Source: Desulfosporosinus acidiphilus SJ4
Lineage (GTDB): Bacteria; Bacillota; Desulfitobacteriia; Desulfitobacteriales; Desulfitobacteriaceae
Direction: 5' to 3'
Length of the DNA stretch: 64,000 nt
NCBI RefSeq assembly: GCF_000255115.2
Contig: NC_018068.1
Span: 4,125,977 to 4,189,976, forward strand
Shown here: positions 2,677-59,723 of the stretch, in pieces
Position numbering within the stretch: the stretch's first letter is position 1
Layout: every line of letters starts with the position of its first letter
Translations under genes and position numbers: made by a program
Notes under the pieces: model-generated
Told to the model about the DNA's origin: nothing
Databases searched by the model: none
Seen by the model: the letters and a program-made list of their open reading frames with translations, nothing else

Positions 2677-4701
2677 TTAATTATCTTGAATCTCACCAAA
2701 CATTGGTACAATCGTTAAAGTTGCGGTTGTTTTAGTTCCACTATTTGAGTCTACACCGGTTATCGTAATTTCAGTAAGCGACGAAGAATTAATATTCGGG
2801 AGAAATGTCACTATTAGCAAACCGTTTTGTGCAGTAATTGTACCCACATCAGTCGTGAATTTTAGGCCACTCGTAAGAGATGGATAATTTGTGATTTCAT
2901 TGCCGTATTGATCATACACACTATAAGTTCCATAACCCGTCTTTCCATCCGTTGGATTCAAAGCAAGCTTAGTTGAAATTATCGTGATTTTAGTGACCTT
3001 TTGATCTGAGTATTGACTAGAGCTTGGAATTTGGGTTGTTGGATTATTAGTGGGGGATGTATAACTTGAAGACCCTGTACCGGAATTAGCGTCAAGACTT
3101 ACGACTCTGCCGGTGATTAAGTCTACGAGTGTAATAATTACAGGTTTATCTATATCTGCAGAAGAGTTGTAAGTTATCGTACCTAAACCTTTGCTCGGAT
3201 CTAAAGTAATTGATGAACTGATGGAGGTGACTGCTGATAACTGTGTTGCCGGAACGGCTGATGTAATATCTTTCCCTGTTTCATCGAGTACTTGGTACTT
3301 AAAGGTTGCTGTAGTTGTTCCAACTTTTGTGAAATTGCTAATTTTAAGAGTCCTATTATTGCCTATCATGGTATCTCCATTTTCAGTATCGGAGGTATTA
3401 GACGGTGAAAAATTAAGACTCACAAGTCTGCCCGTGGTTAAGTCTACAAGTGTAATAATTACCGATTTATCTATATCTGCAGAAGAGTTGTAAGTTATCG
3501 TACCTAAACCTTTGCTCGGATCTAAGGTAACTGAAGAACTTACAGAGACAACTGCTGATAACTGTGTAGCCGGAACAGTTGACGTAATGTCCTTCCCATT
3601 TTCATCAAGCACTTGGTACTTAAAGGTTGCTGTAGTTGTCCCAACTTTTGTGAGATTGCTCAATTTAAGAGTCCTATTATTTCCGATTGAAATATCACCA
3701 GTGGCGGCATCAGACGGTTTCAGATTGTCAATTACCGAATCAGGAATAATCCCCGTTCCGCCAAACACATAGATATGACTTGCAGCGGAAAATCTTTGCT
3801 GATAATAACTTCTCGTTTTTGCCGGGGAATCATTATTAATAAGGATTATAGGTTCTGACAATTTGGCGCTGTAGGCAGCGCCTGTCAAGGCATCAGCAAA
3901 GCCTTCACCCGTGGCTAAACAGATACTGTTTGAATTAAAATCATTATTAAATAGTTGATTTACAGCAATATTTCTTGCATATTTATCAGCCCCTGAGATC
4001 CGTTCTGCATTCGGTAACTGTTGGAATACTTGATCACTAATAATATCCGAATCCCCGACAACATAGGATTTACTCACATCGAGAGTTGAAAGATAACTTT
4101 TAACAACGTCAGGTACAGAATCATGAGGTACAAGAATAATGGGTATTTGCTTCATAGCAGCAACGGATGCAACGGATAAGGCATCGGGATAGTCCTCTCC
4201 AGTTACAACAAACAAGCTTGAAGGAGTTGTAGTGACTTCTTGGGCAACTTGAATTGCGGTACCGTAGCGGTCATTCCCGTAAATTCGCGTGGTCTCAAGT
4301 CCCATCGTCTTAAGTTCAGACTCAACCGCTTGAGATACGACTGCAGTTCCACCAACAATTAATACATTTTTCACTTGTAAATCCACTAACGTTTGTTTTG
4401 TCGAAGCCGGCAAACTGCCAGCAGTTGTTAACAAGATCGGGGCATTATATTTTTCAGCTAAAGGGGCAGCTGACAGGGCATCAGGATAGTCTCCGCCAAA
4501 AGCCAAAACAGCATAATCAGATTGTGACCAACCTGCCTCAGCAATTTGAGATGCCGTTTCGTAACGATCAAAACCTGCCAATCGAGCAACTGTAGGCGCT
4601 GAATTTGCTAAGGTAGCTGCTGGAAAAACTAAACTCATAAGACTAATTAGGAGTAGGGTTAAAGTTAAACTTAACCTTGGATTTCTTTTTCTTAGAGACA
4701 T
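2677..4701 (-). CDS. Secreted cell-wall-binding repeat 2 (CWB2) protein
   Basis: A 674-aa exported surface protein. A signal peptide (about residues 1-33, hydrophobic core LTLTLLLISLMSLVF) is followed by three CWB2 repeats (about 35-330; recurring RLAGFDRYETA, RIYGNDRYGTA and RISGADKYARN with YPDALSAAPLA-type motifs). In clostridia CWB2 triplets anchor proteins non-covalently to wall polymer. The C-terminal half has two near-identical ~107-residue blocks (each starting IGNNRTLK and containing TFKYQVLDE and LDPSKGLGTITYNSSADIDK), then a Ser/Thr-rich linker and a terminal beta-rich Ig-like domain (FTTDVGTITAQNGLLIVTF). No catalytic domain is seen; an adhesin or S-layer-associated role is inferred. 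The ribosome site (GAAGTGA, ~12 bases before ATG) is modest. Confidence 0.85.
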   Translation of the reverse strand: MSLRKRNPRLSLTLTLLLISLMSLVFPAATLANSAPTVARLAGFDRYETASQIAEAGWSQSDYAVLAFGGDYPDALSAAPLAEKYNAPILLTTAGSLPASTKQTLVDLQVKNVLIVGGTAVVSQAVESELKTMGLETTRIYGNDRYGTAIQVAQEVTTTPSSLFVVTGEDYPDALSVASVAAMKQIPIILVPHDSVPDVVKSYLSTLDVSKSYVVGDSDIISDQVFQQLPNAERISGADKYARNIAVNQLFNNDFNSNSICLATGEGFADALTGAAYSAKLSEPIILINNDSPAKTRSYYQQRFSAASHIYVFGGTGIIPDSVIDNLKPSDAATGDISIGNNRTLKLSNLTKVGTTTATFKYQVLDENGKDITSTVPATQLSAVVSVSSSVTLDPSKGLGTITYNSSADIDKSVIITLVDLTTGRLVSLNFSPSNTSDTENGDTMIGNNRTLKISNFTKVGTTTATFKYQVLDETGKDITSAVPATQLSAVTSISSSITLDPSKGLGTITYNSSADIDKPVIITLVDLITGRVVSLDANSGTGSSSYTSPTNNPTTQIPSSSQYSDQKVTKITIISTKLALNPTDGKTGYGTYSVYDQYGNEITNYPSLTSGLKFTTDVGTITAQNGLLIVTFLPNINSSSLTEITITGVDSNSGTKTTATLTIVPMFGEIQDN
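3060..3690 (-). repeat. Tandem 321-bp duplication inside CWB2 gene
   Basis: Two in-frame copies of a block with exact 321-base (107-codon) spacing. For example, GTCTACGAGTGTAATAATTA at 3121 matches GTCTACAAGTGTAATAATTA at 3442. A long tract around 3149-3205 is almost identical to 3470-3526. The high nucleotide identity indicates a recent duplication. Confidence 0.9.
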
Positions 4702-24036: not shown

Positions 24037-24180
24037 CCGACTACACCTCCGAATTAATGATTAAACTATAGGCCCCCGCTTACTCCCTAAATTCTAAATA
24101 TGTATCTGACGTAACCTCAAACTCTTTCATGTTTTGACTTATTAACACCCGAACCAAACCGCTACCACATGTTATTGGAA

Positions 24181-24236
24181 TGTTATTAGTGTTATTAGGG
24201 TTATTAGGGTTATTAGGGTTATTAGGGTGTTATTAG
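24181..24236. repeat. 9-bp microsatellite TTATTAGGG
   Basis: A tandem array of TTATTAGGG (four exact units plus degenerate flanking TGTTATTAG units), lying between the ppdK-regulator gene and ccpN. It directly abuts an ACCGTCC stem-loop (24227-24253), whose arm GTGTTATTAG resembles the repeat unit. Confidence 0.9.
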
Positions 24237-31556: not shown

Positions 31557-31583
31557 TACACGAGGGACGGTCCTTTTGACACA
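31557..31583. repeat. ACCGTCC stem-loop repeat, copy 3
   Basis: TACACGAGGGACGGTCC TTTTGACACA. Family member with ACCGTCC core on the minus strand and GTGT/ACAC ends, 45 bases upstream of recO. Confidence 0.65.
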
Positions 31584-31608
31584 CTTTTCGAAACAGGGGT
31601 CGAGACAG

Positions 31609-31639
31609 GTGAGACAGGGGGACGGTTCTCTTGTCTCAC
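31609..31639. repeat. ACCGTCC-family stem-loop, TGTCTCAC variant, copy 4
   Basis: Perfect arms GTGAGACA (31609-31616) and TGTCTCAC (31632-31639) around a GGGGGACGGTTCTCT core. It is a variant with a changed arm but a retained, complementary stem. Confidence 0.75.
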
Positions 31640-31699
31640 TCTCGTTTCAAAATTCAAGGATTAAGTGATTTGTATCTATCACCCCTAAGTCAAGAGACA

Positions 31700-31776
31700 C
31701 ATATGACAAGAGCACGCATTCTCTAAGTAAGCGGCCCAGCAAACTCCGTTCCGGTGACCGACCCCGTCGTCATACA
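31700..31776 (-). repeat. Large palindromic repeat, internally deleted copy
   Basis: Contains the outer arm (ATATGACAAGAGC), the AAGTAAGCGGCCCAGCAAACTCCGTTCC arm (31726-31753) and then jumps directly to GTCATAC, lacking the GC-rich nested hairpins. It is a deletion derivative of the full element next to it (31865-32067). Confidence 0.75.
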
Positions 31777-31793
31777 GAGATTTCCCCAATTCA

Positions 31794-31817
31794 GACGGTG
31801 CACATTAATGTGCCGTC
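31794..31817. repeat. Small GACGG/CCGTC palindrome, copy 1
   Basis: GACGGTGCACATT / AATGTGCCGTC, a near-perfect palindrome. The family recurs at 42350, 49906, 49976 and 50195. Confidence 0.8.
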
Positions 31818-31864
31818 TCCCCAACTTCTCCGTCATCTCCCCTGACCCTAAGCCCAGAGACGCA

Positions 31865-32067
31865 GTATGACAAGAGCGTGAAGTCTCTACGTAAGCAGTC
31901 AGCAAACTCCGTTCCAGCGACCCACCCCAGACACGGGGCGGCGCATAGGACGTGCGCCGCCGCCATAGCGCCATGGATGGCGCTTATGGTGGGAACCCCG
32001 CTCCCCAAAACCAGTCGCTGGAACGGCTAGTTTGCTCTGCGTCGTACGACTGAGCGCTCTGTCATAC
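31865..32067 (-). repeat. Large palindromic repeat A (3' of deoC)
   Basis: A 203-bp nested inverted repeat. Outer arms GTATGACAAGAGCG (31865) / CGCTCTGTCATAC (to 32067); second arms AGCAAACTCCGTTCCAGCGA (31901) / TCGCTGGAACGGCTAGTTTG (32016); inner hairpins GGCGGCGCA / TGCGCCGCC and AGCGCCAT / ATGGCGCT. It begins eight bases after the deoC stop codon. Confidence 0.9.
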
Positions 32068-32074
32068 AAGTCTC

Positions 32075-32719
32075 CTACTTAAGCACCGCACTCGTCCCCA
32101 ACCTCTCTGCACCTGCTTCTATCAATTGCAGAGCAAATTCCTTTGTTCTTATCCCCCCAGAAGCCTTCACCTTAACATTTTCCCCAACCCACGTTTTCAG
32201 ATTTCGCACATCCTCAATAGTGGCTCCGCCGCCGGCAAAACCCGTGGAAGTTTTAATATAATCTGCGCCCGAACGTTTGACAATCTCAGCCACCATTTTC
32301 TTTTCCTCTTCCGTAAGCAAGCAGGTCTCGATGATTACCTTAATCAAAAGGCCACATGAATGAGCCGCTTCAACTACCCGGAAAATATCCCGCTCAACAG
32401 CTTCCCACTTACCAGACTTGGCCCATCCAATATTAATAACCATATCAACTTCTTTGCCCCCATGAGCTTTAACCATAAAAACCTCAGAAACCTTAGTCTC
32501 CGTGAATGTTGCTCCCAACGGGAATCCTACAACTGCGGCCACGCCGATTCCCGTACCAAACAAAAGTTTAGCAGCAGTCTGAACAAACGAAGGATTTACA
32601 CATACCGTTGCAAATTTATGTTCTTGCGCTTCGTGACACAAAGCAACAATATCCTTTTCTGAAGCCTGCGGCTTCAAAAGCGTATGATCGGTCATTCCCG
32701 CTATATTAATTTCACTCAT
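32075..32719 (-). CDS. deoC: Deoxyribose-phosphate aldolase
   Basis: Class I aldolase splitting 2-deoxyribose 5-phosphate into acetaldehyde and glyceraldehyde 3-phosphate, the last step of deoxynucleoside salvage. About 214 aa. MTDHTLLKPQASEKDI at the N terminus; DMVINIGWAKSG; IKVIIETCLLTEEEK; Schiff-base Lys in VKVKASGGIRTKEFAL; and IEAGAERLGTSAV. ATG 32719 lies immediately after the era stop codon; the upstream in-frame codons belong to the end of era. Not a usual member of the era-recO cluster, but it suits the nearby cdd gene (pyrimidine salvage). A large palindromic repeat begins just after its stop. Confidence 0.95.
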   Translation of the reverse strand: MSEINIAGMTDHTLLKPQASEKDIVALCHEAQEHKFATVCVNPSFVQTAAKLLFGTGIGVAAVVGFPLGATFTETKVSEVFMVKAHGGKEVDMVINIGWAKSGKWEAVERDIFRVVEAAHSCGLLIKVIIETCLLTEEEKKMVAEIVKRSGADYIKTSTGFAGGGATIEDVRNLKTWVGENVKVKASGGIRTKEFALQLIEAGAERLGTSAVLK

Positions 32720-33647: not shown

Positions 33648-33932
33648 TTCCCTATACTTTTACTTTATTTCTTTCCTTAATTACGATAACCCTTTGCAAT
33701 GACATCTATTCAGTACGATCTTTATCAATCAACAAGTTCAGATCCGATTTAAGCAAAAAAACTCAGGAATTCTCTCCTACCCCAACGCCTCCCTTTTTGA
33801 GATATAAGTCAATGCATTTATTTAAAGACATCGGCAAACCAAAAGGTGCACTGTAATATGCCTTATCGCAAACCCTTGGTTAATGGAATCATTCTCTAGA
33901 GAACATCTTCCCGCTCTCCAAAGCCCGGGACT
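33648..33932. other. Intergenic region between cdd repeat and era
   Basis: About 285 bases with no recognised gene. The only structure seen is the short palindrome TTCTCTAGAGAA near 33892. Presumably it holds an era promoter, but none stands out. Confidence 0.4.
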
Positions 33933-34198
33933 GAACGTCCAAGCGCGAGGTCTTTACGGGAGCAGCCTAGCAAACTTCGTGAAAGCGACCCGACCTCAGA
34001 GACGGGGCGGCGCATAGGATGTGCGCCGCCGCCATAGCGCCAGGGATGGTGCTTATGGCACGATAGTCTCCAGTGGAGACTATCGCCGAAGGCGGGTTCT
34101 TCAAAAAATACTATCGCCGTAGGATGAACCCCTCTCCCCCAAGAAGGAGCTTAAACGCTAGTTTGCTCTGCGAACGTAGGACCGAGCGCTGTGCACTC
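33933..34198 (-). repeat. Large palindromic repeat B (overlaps cdd stop), with insertion
   Basis: Same architecture as repeat A: AGCAAACT arms around 33967 and 34157-34164, and the GGCGGCGCA / TGCGCCGCC core at 34006-34031. It carries an extra ~60 bases replacing the GGGAACCCC segment, including a perfect palindrome CGATAGTCTCC-AGT-GGAGACTATCG (34061-34085) and a second ACTATCGCCG copy at 34110. The cdd stop codon (34197-34199) overlaps its terminal arm. Confidence 0.85.
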
Positions 34199-34652
34199 AA
34201 GTCCCCCCACCTAAAAAATCCGGCCCAAACGACTCCGGCAGCAACTTCCTCAACGTCGTCCATCGAGTTTCCCTTCGGCCATTAACCAAAATCACTATAC
34301 AATCCTCAGCAAATTCCCGGATCACCTGCCGGCAGGCACCACAAGGAGAGGGAAACTCATCAGTCGGAACAGCAATAACAATAGCCTCTAGTTTACGCTC
34401 ACCTTTAGCTGCGGCCTGGAAAATTGCATTCCTCTCCGCGCATACTGTCAAACCGTAGCTGGCATTCTCAACATTACAGCCACTAAATATCAATCCCGAA
34501 GAAAACAGTGCCGCCGCACCCACCGGATAATGAGAATACGGAACATAGGCCTGCTGATAAGCAGCAGCAGCCTTGTTGATAAGTTCATCTCTCACTTCAG
34601 GCAGGATATTAGATTCAGTAATCTCTGACAACTGAGAATCAACCTGTTTCAC
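34197..34652 (-). CDS. cdd: Cytidine deaminase
   Basis: Zn-dependent deamination of (deoxy)cytidine to (deoxy)uridine; 151 aa, slightly longer than the ~130-136 aa norm because of an N-terminal extension. Signature CNVENASYGLTVCAERNA with catalytic Glu, and PCGACRQVIREF with the zinc cysteines. The last residues (FLGGGT) and the stop codon TGA lie at the edge of a large palindromic repeat. Conserved position between dgkA and era. A terminator precedes it, so it may have its own promoter. Confidence 0.94.
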   Translation of the reverse strand: MKQVDSQLSEITESNILPEVRDELINKAAAAYQQAYVPYSHYPVGAAALFSSGLIFSGCNVENASYGLTVCAERNAIFQAAAKGERKLEAIVIAVPTDEFPSPCGACRQVIREFAEDCIVILVNGRRETRWTTLRKLLPESFGPDFLGGGT

Positions 34653-42310: not shown

Positions 42311-42338
42311 GTGTTAAGGGGACGGTCCTTTTGACACA
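42311..42338. repeat. ACCGTCC stem-loop repeat, copy 5
   Basis: GTGTTAAGG-GGACGGT-CCTTTTGACAC. It sits immediately upstream of the mtaB ribosome site. Confidence 0.75.
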
Positions 42339-42349
42339 CTCCCGCAACA

Positions 42350-42374
42350 GACGGCGCACATGAAATGTGCCGTC
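42350..42374. repeat. Small GACGG/CCGTC palindrome, copy 2
   Basis: GACGGCGCACAT-GAA-ATGTGCCGTC, identical in layout to the other copies; between the large palindrome and the ACCGTCC stem-loop. Confidence 0.85.
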
Positions 42375-42448
42375 TCCCAAGCTCTTAAAAGAATTGAACT
42401 TACATTCTCCAAAGAACGGCCACAACAATCCCCAAAGCCCAGGACGCA

Positions 42449-42654
42449 GCGTGACACAAGCGTGAGGTCTTTACGTAAGCAGCCCAGCAAACTTCCGTTC
42501 AGGCGACCGACCCCAGATACGGGGCGGCGCATAGGACGTGCGCCGCCACCATAGCGCCAAGGATGGCGCTTATGGTGGGAACCCCGCTCCCCAAAGCAGT
42601 CGACTGAACGGTTAGTTTGCTCTGCGAGCGTACGACCCGAGCGCTGGGTCACCC
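42449..42654 (-). repeat. Large palindromic repeat C (overlaps rsmE stop)
   Basis: About 206 bp. Outer arms GCGTGACAC (42449) / GGGTCACCC (to 42654); second arms AGCAAACTTCCGTTCAGGCG and the CTGAACGGTTAGTTTGCT counterpart; inner GGCGGCGCA / TGCGCCGCC and AGCGCCA / TGGCGCT hairpins. The rsmE stop codon (42649-42651) lies inside the outer arm. Confidence 0.9.
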
Positions 42655-43386
42655 TAAGTCCCCATAATGACCCAACACCAGCGTCAAGGCTGCTAAAGCC
42701 GCCGTTTCCGCTCTTAAAATCCGCGGACCCAACGAAACACTCTTGGCCCCCAGCTCCTCACAGGCTCTGGCAACCTCAGTTGCCTCAAACCCACCCTCGG
42801 GTCCAATCAAAATAGCTATCGGAAGTTCCGGATCAAACGTACTCAACACAGAAGCTAAACGCTGAGTCTTCTCTTCCTCATAGGGGATCAGCCATTGAGT
42901 CCCCTCAGGCAGTTCGTCCTTCAGATCTCCCCAATTGCAGACCGCCCCAATTCGAGGCTCTTTTACCCGGTGAGACTGCTTCGAAGCTTCTGAGGCAATT
43001 TTTTGCCAACGGGCAACTCGCTCCTGGGCCTTACTTCCCTCAAGCTGCATCACAGAACGTTTGGTGCGCAGGGGAATAAGCCCTTCCATACCAAGTTCTG
43101 TACCTTTCTGAATAACCCATTCCATTTTTTCACCTTTAGAAAGTCCTGCTACCACAAAAACAGACGTGTGCGCCTCAACATCGGGATGATCGCTGCTAAG
43201 AATTCGGCAAGTCACGCTTTTATCTTCGATTTTCAGAATCACACCCAAATATTCCATACCGCTGTTGTCATAGCCCAAAACTTTATCGCCGGGAGTAAGA
43301 CGAAGCACACGAACAAGATGATCCCGTTCCGTTCCTCGCAGCCAAAAAGCATTTTTACCTAGTTCTGTGATCTTAAACCGGTTCAT
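42649..43386 (-). CDS. rsmE: 16S rRNA (uracil1498-N3)-methyltransferase RsmE
   Basis: SPOUT-class methyltransferase (245 aa) modifying U1498 of 16S rRNA. N-terminal PUA-like domain ([18 protein letters not shown]), SPOUT knot with [15 protein letters not shown] and [22 protein letters not shown]. It overlaps the prmA 3' end by 14 bases, as is common (prmA-rsmE). The C-terminal codons and TGA stop coincide with the start of a large palindromic repeat. Confidence 0.96.
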
Positions 43387-49869: not shown

Positions 49870-50010
49870 TCCATTGTGAGTCTCAGTGCCTCTCAACTCA
49901 CACCAGACGGCGCACATGAAATGTGCCATCTCCCAAGCCCTCCCTGTGAGTCTCACTGCCTCTCAACTCGCACTTGACGCCGCACATGAAATGTGCCGTC
50001 TCCCAAGCTC
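49870..50010. repeat. 70-bp tandem duplication carrying small palindromes
   Basis: Two direct copies at an offset of 70 bases (TGTGAGTCTCAGTGCC at 49875; TGTGAGTCTCACTGCC at 49945). Each ends in a GACGG/CCGTC palindrome (49906-49930 and 49976-50000) followed by TCCCAAGC. Confidence 0.9.
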
Positions 50011-50140: not shown

Positions 50141-50171
50141 GCGTGTCACAAGGACCGTCCCCTTGACGCAC
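50141..50171. repeat. ACCGTCC stem-loop repeat, copy 6
   Basis: GCGTGTCACAAGG-ACCGTCC-CCTTGACGCAC. The left and right arms pair well. Confidence 0.8.
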
Positions 50172-50194: not shown

Positions 50195-50219
50195 GACGGT
50201 GCACATAAAATGTGCCGTC
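50195..50219. repeat. Small GACGG/CCGTC palindrome, copy 5
   Basis: GACGGTGCACAT-AAA-ATGTGCCGTC (copies 3 and 4 are inside the 49870-50010 duplication). Confidence 0.85.
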
Positions 50220-50297
50220 ACCCCAGTTCCCTATTGTCTTCTTAACCGGGCCCCCAATCTCTTCTTACACGTCCCCCGTCCCCCAAGCCCGGACGCA

Positions 50298-50504
50298 GTG
50301 TGAAACGAGCGCGAGGGCTTTACGGGAGCAGCCCAGCAAACTTCCGTTCCAGCGACCGACCCCAGACACGGGGCGGCGCATAGGACGTGCGCCGCCGCCA
50401 TAGCGCCATGGATGGCGCTTATGGTGGGAACCCCGCTCCCCATAGCCAGTCGCTGGAACGGTTAGTTTGCTCTGCGAACGTACGACCCGAGCACTTGTTC
50501 ACAC
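50298..50504 (-). repeat. Large palindromic repeat D (overlaps hemW stop)
   Basis: About 207 bp. Outer arms GTGTGAAACGAGCGCGAGG (50298) against CCGAGCACTTGTTCACAC (to 50504); second arms AGCAAACTTCCGTTCCAGCG (50335) / CGCTGGAACGGTTAGTTTGC; inner GGCGGCGCA / TGCGCCGCC and AGCGCCAT / ATGGCGCT. The hemW stop codon (50499-50501) is inside the outer arm. Confidence 0.9.
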
Positions 50505-51710
50505 AAAGTCTTTTAAAATCCCATTCGCTACAAACGAATACTTAGAATTCAAGCACAAACTATCACCATTTATTTCAAAAAAATCCCCATACTGATAGCG
50601 TTCCAATACATTCCCATAAATATCCCTAAGATCAACGCCAAAATCCTCACGAAACTGCGAGAAGCTGACTCCCTCTCGCAGCCGCAGCCCCAAAATCATA
50701 CGTTCAGCCATGCAATCCTTGAGAGATAACACTTCTTTACCATCGTCATCAAGGGGCTCCCGTCCCTCGAAAAGACTTGTATAATAAGCCCGCACATCTT
50801 CCACATTCTTTTGCCGGACTCGCTTAAGACATGAAACCCCGCCCGGACCCATACCTATATAATCCTTCCCTCGCCAATACCCTAAATTATGTCGGCACTC
50901 AAAGCCCGGAAGTGAAAAATTCGACGTCTCATACTGGATGTAGCCATCGTTTTCCAAACGTTTCACAACCCATTCCTGCATCTCCGCCTGGAGATCATCG
51001 TCGGGCAAGTCCCGGTCTTTCTCGGAAATTGTCTTTCTCAAAAATTCATCTTTGATTTCCGCGCCCCCTATTAAGCTTGAGTTCTCTGGGACTTCTCGAA
51101 AGCGATCATACAATGGAGTCCCTTCCTCTAACATTAACCCATAGAGTGAAAGATGTTCCGGCTTATAAGCTAAGGCTTCTTCAATGGAAGTCTTCCATGA
51201 GATCATATCTTGCCCGGGAAGTCCGAACATTAAATCCAAATTCAAGTTCGAAAACCCCGCCTCTCGCAAAAACCTCACTGCATCTCGAGCCTGTTGAGCG
51301 CTGTGAAAACGCCCGACATTTCTTAAAAGCCTATCATCAAAGGCTTGAACCCCCAGAGAAAAACGGTTAATTCCATATTTCCGTATGATAGTGATCTTCT
51401 CACGAGTAAGAGTTCCGGGATTTCCTTCCACTGTCTTTTCGGCTCTCTCTTCAAAAGCGAAGTTTTGAGTGATCAATATCATAAGCCGCTCAAGATTTTC
51501 AGCAGTTAACACCGTCGGCGTCCCCCCTCCGATAAAAAGAGAAGATACCCCTTGCGGAGCATCTTTTCGACGCCCGGCCACTTCAAGTGCCAGGCCTTCT
51601 AAATACAAGGCTATAAGGTCCCCCGGGACATCCTTCAGCGTATGAGAATAGAACGCACAATAATCACACTTCTGAATACAAAAGGGAACATGAACATATA
51701 GAGAAGGCAT
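50499..51710 (-). CDS. hemW: HemW-family radical SAM protein (heme chaperone)
   Basis: A 403-aa radical-SAM protein related to coproporphyrinogen III oxidase HemN; HemW members bind haem and deliver it. MPSLYVHVPFCIQKCDYCAFYSH carries the CxxxCxxC cluster, followed by SSLFIGGGTPTVL, RFSLGVQAFDDRLLRNVGR and NLDLMFGLPGQ. The C-terminal HemN domain (NLGYWRGKDYIGMGPGGVS) is present. The usual lepA-hemW-hrcA order is kept. Stop codon overlaps repeat D. Confidence 0.93.
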   Translation of the reverse strand: MPSLYVHVPFCIQKCDYCAFYSHTLKDVPGDLIALYLEGLALEVAGRRKDAPQGVSSLFIGGGTPTVLTAENLERLMILITQNFAFEERAEKTVEGNPGTLTREKITIIRKYGINRFSLGVQAFDDRLLRNVGRFHSAQQARDAVRFLREAGFSNLNLDLMFGLPGQDMISWKTSIEEALAYKPEHLSLYGLMLEEGTPLYDRFREVPENSSLIGGAEIKDEFLRKTISEKDRDLPDDDLQAEMQEWVVKRLENDGYIQYETSNFSLPGFECRHNLGYWRGKDYIGMGPGGVSCLKRVRQKNVEDVRAYYTSLFEGREPLDDDGKEVLSLKDCMAERMILGLRLREGVSFSQFREDFGVDLRDIYGNVLERYQYGDFFEINGDSLCLNSKYSFVANGILKDFV

Positions 51711-51870
51711 AACGAGGATATCTCTCCTTTATATTTCAATCCGGAACGCCTTTAATATCTGACCAGCTTACAACGGAAAGGCGCATCCTACCATATTGGG
51801 GGCATTTTGAATCAAAGCTAATTGTGCCCCAAAGTTCCGAGTTCCCAAAGATCTTAACGACCTTTGAAAG

Positions 51871-51941
51871 GGAGGCAGCTTCGCCCACAAGAGAGAACTC
51901 ATTGCATGGAGAGGCGGTAAAGCTCACAAAGCTCTTGTGGG
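51871..51941. repeat. Gene-end repeat family 2, copy 1 (3' of lepA)
   Basis: A ~60-bp block beginning GGAGGCAGCTTCGCCCACAA and including CATTGCATGGAGAGGCGGTAAAGC is nearly identical to 55691-55750. Here it is bounded by a 10-bp inverted repeat CCCACAAGAG (51884) / CTCTTGTGGG (to 51941). It lies about 20 bases after the lepA stop on the minus strand. Confidence 0.85.
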
Positions 51942-55618: not shown

Positions 55619-55690
55619 TGATATCTCGCTCCTTTCTCATTTTCAATAATCTACCCCGAAGAAACTGCCCCGAACACGATAAACCTCAAA

Positions 55691-55750
55691 GGAAGGCAGC
55701 TTCGCCCACAAGAGTGAACTCATTGCATGGAGAGGCGGTAAAGCACACAA
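55691..55750. repeat. Gene-end repeat family 2, copy 2 (3' of modD)
   Basis: A 60-bp block nearly identical to 51871-51929 (GGAAGGCAGCTTCGCCCACA onward, then CATTGCATGGAGAGGCGGTA). It ends two bases from the modD stop codon. Confidence 0.88.
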
Positions 55751-59394: not shown

Positions 59395-59590
59395 CAAAAA
59401 AACTAATGGCTCCCCGGAAAAGGGAGCCAGTAATAATAGACCGGTATTCATTCGGCTTAGACGCGCTGCTCCTTTTCAAAAACGTGAAGGCATACCCGTT
59501 TCCGGAGATACCCTGAGGATTAAAATCCTGTCCAGCGACCATGGAACGATCATACGCTCTTTAGGTCCTCCTGGCTCGGAGATTATCTAT
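59395..59590 (-). promoter_or_regulatory. Moco-like riboswitch leader with terminator
   Basis: Minus-strand leader of modB1. The aptamer-like part (59483-59583) starts CTCCGAGCCAGGAGG, has a receptor-like arm with ACCTAAAGAGCG / CGTTCCATGGT, an AGGATTTTAATCCT hairpin and a CCG-GAAA-CGG GNRA hairpin in GTATCTCCGGAAACGGGTAT. These resemble the Moco RNA motif, which senses molybdenum or tungsten cofactor. It is followed by a GGCTCCC / GGGAGCC terminator (59408-59428) and a T run (59395-59402), so transcription attenuation is likely. Motif identity was recalled, not computed. Confidence 0.7.
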
Positions 59591-59723
59591 TAAATTCACG
59601 GGAACTATACTGCGAAATTTCTATCCTCGCCGTACGTTTGTTTAACCAACTTAATCTAATGCATTATCTGAAAATATTGTCTTAAATGTCATTTTGAGTA
59701 ACATCTGAAAATTATCTCACTTG

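Follow-up and report, generated by a model that had tools for sequence, protein, structure and literature searches.

A TwoAYGGAY-like palindromic repeat of Desulfosporosinus located at the stop codons of genes

Palindromic repeats in the window and their linkage

The window, i.e., the whole stretch of 64,000 nucleotides analysed here, covers 4.126-4.190 Mb of the 4.93-Mb contig (C3) of Desulfosporosinus acidiphilus SJ4. Three genes encoded on its minus strand, deoC, rsmE, and hemW, carry at their 3' ends a large palindrome resembling the Rfam family TwoAYGGAY, followed, going away from the gene, by a small palindrome of the GACGGC type and by a repeat with the motif ACCGTCC. This arrangement had been described in an initial annotation, and direct reading of the sequences confirms the three parts in the order claimed at all three genes. 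A repeat search of the window revealed a fourth large copy (33922-34080 in register), which is absent from that annotation. It lies at a gene identified by Pfam as cytidine deaminase, and the small palindrome is degenerate there, as judged by eye. The features are listed below; strands given for the repeats are those of the repeat family.

31563-31584 and 31618-31639, plus strand: two ACCGTCC-type repeats near deoC (motif match)
31730-31765, plus strand: left-arm remnant of a second large element near deoC (match at C3:4157706-4157741)
31794-31817, plus strand: small GACGGC-type palindrome of the deoC unit (read directly and by pattern)
31859-32072, plus strand, gene on the minus strand: large palindrome at the 3' end of deoC (HMM limits)
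32075-32077, minus strand: stop codon TAG of deoC, at the element's end
33940-34204, plus strand: fourth large palindrome, with an apical insertion, at the cytidine deaminase gene (HMM limits)
34197-34199, minus strand: stop codon TGA of the cytidine deaminase ORF, inside the element
42318-42339, plus strand: ACCGTCC-type repeat near rsmE (motif match)
42350-42374, plus strand: small palindrome of the rsmE unit (from the sequence)
42442-42657, plus strand: large palindrome at the 3' end of rsmE (HMM limits)
42649-42651, minus strand: stop codon TGA of rsmE, inside the element
49906-49930 and 49976-50000, plus strand: two further small palindromes beyond the hemW unit, in a 70-nt direct repeat
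50141-50171, no strand assigned: palindromic ACCGTCC-type repeat near hemW (motif match)
50195-50219, plus strand: small palindrome of the hemW unit (from the sequence)
50291-50507, plus strand: large palindrome at the 3' end of hemW (HMM limits)
50499-50501, minus strand: stop codon TGA of hemW, inside the element

With a length of about 210-330 nt, the large palindrome is one long and imperfect hairpin; its internal loops are conserved, and two apical hairpins with ANGGAYG loops form its tip. Across the genus, 68 copies were collected from BLAST in SJ4 and from TwoAYGGAY matches in genus genomes, which makes them a sample and not a census. The elements were called with HMMs of both arms, and the 88 right-arm and 112 left-arm matches gave the 68 unique pairs that were kept. 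GGA is retained in loop 1 of all 68 copies and in loop 2 of 67. The right-arm motif is also present in records of Desulfosporosinus sp. FKB, D. acididurans M1, and Desulfosporosinus sp. PR. Extra hairpins are inserted in the apical (GGA) loops of three elements (L008, L009, and L010) and of the hemW copies of genomes G019 and G020; in some of the inserted hairpins, the GGA loops belong to the other strand. The pattern looks as though hairpins enter hairpin tips.

In the SJ4 genome, 12 large elements were found, 11 by BLAST and one by the family search. All are located between 3.80 and 4.86 Mb, a fifth of the chromosome, and 11 of them are on the plus strand. The SRP RNA gene lies at 15 kb of the contig, which we take, from the usual gene order, to place the origin near position 0; the large elements would then occupy a single replichore.

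The large and small palindromes form one unit. A loop-tolerant pattern of the small palindrome has 13 matches in the SJ4 genome, two of which are apical hairpins inside large elements. The remaining 11 all adjoin a large element, on the same side, with the same strand sense, and at 34-328 nt from start to start; a small palindrome is present at 7 of the 12 large elements found. The same holds in the genus, where it occurs within 300 nt on that side in 50 of the 65 copies with at least 200 nt of upstream sequence, and on the other side in one. Controls with this pattern gave no match in 1360 shuffled and 62 displaced stretches. At hemW of genome G027, left arm, spacer, and small palindrome together form the repeating unit of a tandem array, which has a 170-174-nt period. 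It is from this array and from the linkage in SJ4 and in the genus that the unity of the two palindromes is concluded. Duplicated parts are also carried by the leuS and cell-wall hydrolase loci.

The ACCGTCC repeat has a different distribution. At up to one mismatch, 54 matches are found in the SJ4 genome (two for a backward-pattern control), of which 42 lie away from large elements and on both strands. Because so many copies are elsewhere, ACCGTCC is not a fixed part of the unit; it is a separate repeat family, often settling beside it. In five of seven such places examined away from large elements, the motif forms an inverted pair and thereby a short palindrome. At the rsmE gene of genome G014, an ACCGTCC repeat interrupts the right arm of the large element. 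A short run of GTTATTAGG-like units adjoins ACCGTCC motifs at 24180-24225 of the window.

These distributions bear on the proposal of the initial annotation that all three motifs belong to one co-transposing element, kept in order and orientation while the spacers decay. In its favour, the order large, small, ACCGTCC (taking nearest copies) is found at all five loci where the small palindrome is intact and ACCGTCC matches (deoC, rsmE, hemW, leuS, and the hydrolase), and 12 of the 54 ACCGTCC matches are no more than 700 nt from a large element on this side, compared with an expected 0.09. The order is broken at a sixth locus, the CTP synthase gene (L010), where, as judged by eye, the small palindrome is degenerate and a copy of ACCGTCC separates it from the large element. 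Orientation is maintained by the large and small parts and not by ACCGTCC, which matches on the plus strand at deoC and rsmE and on the minus strand at hemW, leuS, the hydrolase, and CTP synthase. In the genus, the exact ACCGTCC motif is found within 300 nt of 16 of the 65 copies, compared with 50 for the small palindrome. The genome-wide mapping that the annotation had suggested thus finds every pattern-matching small palindrome with a large one and most ACCGTCC copies elsewhere: a larger element is borne out for two of the parts, while a three-part transposon is rejected for ACCGTCC by its genome-wide distribution. Co-transposition of all three is unsupported and, in our judgement, highly improbable; a two-part unit with a separate repeat takes its place.

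The junction with stop codons

Facing genes were assigned by a mechanical caller as ORFs of at least 70 aa with a stop at −60 to +150 nt of the right end of the element, the longest ORF being kept; a few short ones may not be genes, e.g., the L083 case, which runs through repeat DNA. On this basis, an ORF whose 3' end faces the element was assigned to 58 of the 68 sampled copies, and for 55 of the 58 the stop codon is found -11 to +17 nt from the right end. The facing ORFs represent 26 families, 24 of which have a copy with the stop in this interval. Among the non-coding bases of the window, 758 of 10,261 are that close 3' of a stop. The left end of the element is at a stop codon in 2 of 65 copies, and the outer edge of the small palindrome in two more, both with ORFs ending inside.

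The junction takes two forms. In 18 of the 58 copies, the ORF continues into the element, which provides its last codons and a TGA stop, and the proteins often end in ...GLV or ...GLA. Where the stop lies outside the element (+1 to the far limit), it is TAG in 29 of 40 copies. TAA terminates 2 of the 58 ORFs at elements; among the genes of the window it terminates 27 of 49, and among genus ORFs, a set that includes element-bearing genes, 94 of 236. Profiling of 29 junctions gave no strong common upstream motif beyond the stop and a G-rich join, and the base before TAG varies among them. A further copy of the tail is present beside the stop in 14 of the 68 copies, the L075 case being part of a longer remnant. 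Stop-codon anchoring in most sampled copies, sometimes with the element supplying the stop, is an unusual habit for a bacterial repeat.

Ten of the 68 copies have no facing ORF. Of these, L078 and L117 are near contig ends, L075 is beside another element, and L054 and L095 precede an ORF that is read in the direction of the family strand. The region of L009, an SJ4 copy of this group, matches the cspA leader model below the cut-off, and L064 ends beside sequence that, from its motif, we presume to resemble a T-box leader.

Other candidates for an element in this position were set aside. An intrinsic terminator of the gene is ruled out, as a T-run on the gene strand is found in 0 of 68 copies. 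An integron attC-like site was considered given the position after stop codons, and no core motif was seen by eye. Plain targeting of TAG is not favoured, since non-stop intergenic TAGs should then be struck too.

Alleles with and without the element exist among relatives at both hemW and rsmE. The hemW gene was matched in all 29 genus genomes; from 30 loci, L176-L179 were dropped as split or truncated genes, and the 26 analysed comprise 11 with a right arm at the stop, counting the partial right arms of G004 and G022 (20 and 22 bits), and 15 without. Most of the latter end in ...QEFV-stop. In G011 and G020, HemW ends in QEFVGLV and the stop comes from the element, while G028 keeps the tail (QEFVGLA) with no right-arm match. 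Partial copies in opposite orientation are found some 40 nt further on in G013. Among 13 loci listed, in three of which the common upstream sequence of the next gene was not found, the distance from the hemW stop to that sequence is 30 nt in the empty G017 versus 401-1020 nt in eight occupied genomes.

The rsmE gene was matched in 27 of the 29 genomes. From 29 loci, L148-L149 were dropped as fragments, and 18 of the 27 analysed have a right arm by HMM. The others are one interrupted copy (G014, by eye), five loci without a right arm, among them G023 with a tail remnant and no element, two loci truncated by contig ends, and a single broken gene. In the tree, which comprises 23 genomes and omits G022, G024, and G016, the state of hemW has changed at least six times, four of the changes being forced by strong branches, and that of rsmE five times (G012 has no rsmE, and G014 was set as occupied by eye). 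These changes may reflect either recurrent gain at a single place or recurrent precise loss.

The same gene ends recur between species, namely those of the smc-like, hemW, rsmE, leuS, SRP54, and CTP synthase families, so that selection for a function there is possible. The element could accordingly be a host-selected 3'-UTR hairpin, kept where it is useful for mRNA stability or the tuning of termination, with its stop adjacency arising from selection and not from targeting. Besides this recurrence and the occupancy of rsmE (18 of 27 loci), such a role would fit the mild G-T excess seen when the gene strand is folded for itself (see below) and the statement, in the part of PMC12306157 consulted, that E. 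coli REPs lower translation only when <16 nt from the stop. It sits less well with the 15 of 26 hemW loci that lack the element and their at least six changes on the tree, with the unrelated kinds of the 24 gene families, and with the replaced stop codons and tail remnants, which look like junction scars. A host-selected hairpin is regarded as quite unlikely.

Relation to TwoAYGGAY, arm pairing, and CsrA

The Rfam model RF01731 (TwoAYGGAY) matches the large palindrome with 32.7 bits at deoC; three of the four window copies reach 29.6-36.9 bits over the full length of the model (1-168) and on the same strand. At gathering thresholds, no TwoAYGGAY match is obtained in the window, and one of the five SJ4 matches exceeds the gathering score of 43 (C3:4380948, 48.3 bits). 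The likeness extends to the fold, with two adjacent hairpins, ANGGAY-type loops, and a long closing stem, and the double hairpin with AYGGAY-type loops that characterizes TwoAYGGAY is found in the sampled copies (GGA in 68/68 and 67/68). TwoAYGGAY differs in being known as a probable structured RNA, whereas a dispersed, stop-anchored palindrome with a companion palindrome is observed here, and the window copies score below its gathering score. A search of 60 genomes, that of SJ4 among them, found TwoAYGGAY in 39 at E <= 0.01 and in 25 above the cut-off; the stricter filters of this search lose weak matches (two in SJ4 versus five at the laxer threshold).

In a genome outside the family (G057, L212-L226), several TwoAYGGAY cores lie inside longer palindromes with GGGGCTGTTGCAAAAC ends, which we take to resemble transposon terminal repeats. 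Few of the 16 G057 matches listed are near a stop, as judged by eye.

When a strand acts as RNA, its stems are expected to drift through G-U pairs on that strand. In the 68 copies, 4152 of 4371 stem cells are Watson-Crick, 44 are G-T, 32 are A-C, and 143 are other combinations. Counted as distinct types, there are 22 G-T and 22 A-C wobbles, and 31 of 65 pairs show at least two Watson-Crick types. A wobble count on 16 copies had given 11 and 7. As a control, 25 SRP RNA sequences of the genus (29 loci minus L186, at a contig edge, and L200, L210, and L211) gave 350 G-U and 0 A-C pairs, or 31 and 0 distinct ones; this control is imperfect in that structures chosen by RNAalifold favour G-U over A-C, antisense SRP also giving 197 and 20. 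In the same run, the corresponding numbers for all 68 elements are 21 and 12 on the plus strand and 36 and 13 on the gene strand, and for the 64 less gapped copies 36 and 19 and 47 and 23, respectively. There is thus a mild G-T excess on either strand of the element in that run, far from that of SRP RNA. With stems that are nearly all Watson-Crick and no clear G-U excess such as a structured RNA shows on its transcribed strand, against a control biased by the choice of structures, the arms are read as being kept complementary at the DNA level. We infer that this could happen, e.g., by template switching between the arms. The conserved internal loops and GGA loops, in turn, argue that something recognises the folded form.

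A published candidate for binding to TwoAYGGAY is CsrA. In the portion of PMC2864571 (2010) consulted, TwoAYGGAY is listed as probably an RNA and probably not cis-regulatory, and in that of PMC4333381 (2014) it is predicted from its loop motifs to bind CsrA in Clostridia. The plus strand of the element could accordingly act as a structured RNA whose ANGGAYG loops would bind or sequester CsrA, and the copies would be dispersed CsrA-binding RNAs antisense to gene ends. The RF01731 match is on this strand, the GGA loops are kept, and csrA is present in the SJ4 genome. Real support comes from co-occurrence: csrA was found in 36 of 39 genomes with TwoAYGGAY matches versus 14 of 21 without (p 0.025), in 31 of 31 versus 11 of 17 at a completeness of at least 90% (p 0.001), and in 24 of 26 versus 1 of 3 within the genus (p 0.04), kinship being ignored in each comparison. 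Against such RNAs, the association outside the genus is not significant (12 of 13 versus 13 of 18, p 0.36, kinship ignored, in the genome search with strict filters), no clear G-U excess is found on the plus strand, and only 4 of 68 copies are followed by a T-run on it. Furthermore, the strand with the GGA loops is antisense to the neighbouring gene, and the stop-codon junction would be left unexplained. Judged from these sequence data, a CsrA-binding RNA is an unlikely identity for the element.

Comparison with known repeats and proposed origin

Dispersed palindromes at gene ends are best known from the REP and BIME sequences of E. coli and other bacteria, which likewise form palindrome mosaics 3' of genes and lie in part at most 15 nt from the stop. 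According to the part of PMC12306157 consulted, 446 of 4,072 E. coli REPs fall within this distance in one census, and 260 of 496 had been counted as acting in translation in an earlier study. The Desulfosporosinus element differs by its length (about 210-330 nt versus 20-40 nt for REPs), the missing GTAG foot, the lack of any linked RAYT found, and the placement of one end only at the stop (55/58). A GTAG-type REP is ruled out by this length and by the variable base before TAG. A RAYT-driven REP is ruled out as well, since the three genome matches to the Y1 transposase (PF01797) are not near the repeats: none is within 25 kb of a large element found. No ACCGTCC repeat was detected in the three Y1 loci. 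Searches of plasmids and phages gave no match.

MITEs such as the enterobacterial RU-1 are similar in being non-autonomous inverted-repeat elements. Inverted-repeat ends (the outer stem is Watson-Crick in 93% of cells) and presence/absence polymorphism, as expected of a MITE, were both found. As reported in the part of PMC2759123 consulted, RU-1 removed a stop codon and extended a protein in one case; here, by contrast, the stop junction is the rule, the orientation is fixed, no target-site duplication was recognised, and the search for Y1 transposases gave no linked one. With respect to the duplication, the extra tails of 14 of the 68 copies are on the stop side, and visual inspection of the hemW inserts listed showed none at their far end. 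The small palindromes recall the CGTC-tagged REPs, which are short and without a dedicated transposase; these were reported, in the part of PMC3733652 consulted, from Proteobacteria, Chlorobi, Bacteroidetes, Spirochaetes, and Thermotogae, and differ in these host phyla, the comparison being one of descriptions and not of consensus sequences. The repeat thus works like a REP/BIME or a MITE and is related in sequence and fold to TwoAYGGAY. The novelty is its placement at stop codons, the large palindrome itself being a relative of RF01731; in the parts of the open-licence literature consulted, no description of the large palindrome repeat or of its stop-codon habit was found.

Taken together, the large and small palindromes are probably, though with no great assurance, two parts of one non-autonomous, MITE- or REP-like DNA repeat of Desulfosporosinus that is anchored to stop codons. 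In the sampled copies, the large palindrome has one end at the stop codons of genes, with its orientation fixed, and the junction either creates a TAG or lets the ORF continue to the TGA of the element. In the proposed scheme, spread and loss of the element would occur at the DNA level, probably via hairpins in single-stranded DNA, and its position at stop codons would result either from strong selection or from some process that operates at the 3' ends of genes. On the transcript, the element would fold into an extended hairpin that begins at the stop codon or immediately behind it; such a structure may delay termination or shield the mRNA, as has been reported for E. coli REPs at most 15 nt from the stop. 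Some observations count against this DNA-repeat reading. The kept GGA loops and internal loops would not be needed by a neutrally decaying repeat, the recurrence of the same gene ends between species points to possible selection, and the co-occurrence of csrA with TwoAYGGAY, together with the GGA loops, lends the published idea of CsrA binding some weight.

A more far-reaching version is doubtful. The palindrome might be mobile and targeted one-way to the stop codons of unrelated genes, remaking stops and C-termini by an undescribed recombination route, with GGA loops that may serve as CsrA bait; TwoAYGGAY would then be at least in part a family of DNA elements. If so, the covariation of TwoAYGGAY would be a product of template switching between the arms of the palindrome instead of selection on RNA. 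The stop-codon junction in nearly all sampled copies with a facing gene would amount to natural 3'-end targeting across many protein genes, and a stop-anchored repeat would be a source of new C-termini. Wobble asymmetry, evaluated on structures fixed beforehand, is suggested as a simple check to separate DNA palindromes from structured RNAs in curated families. Likewise, the 2014 prediction of CsrA-binding RNAs in Clostridia becomes directly testable in a culturable genus.

Other features of the window are a molybdenum-cofactor riboswitch (RF01055) at 59452-59593 on the minus strand (59.5 bits), the sole Rfam match at gathering thresholds, a 63-nt direct repeat at 51867-51929 and 55688-55750 (95% identical), and two 300-nt direct repeats at 3094-3393 and 3415-3714 (85% identical) inside the ORF 2677-4701.
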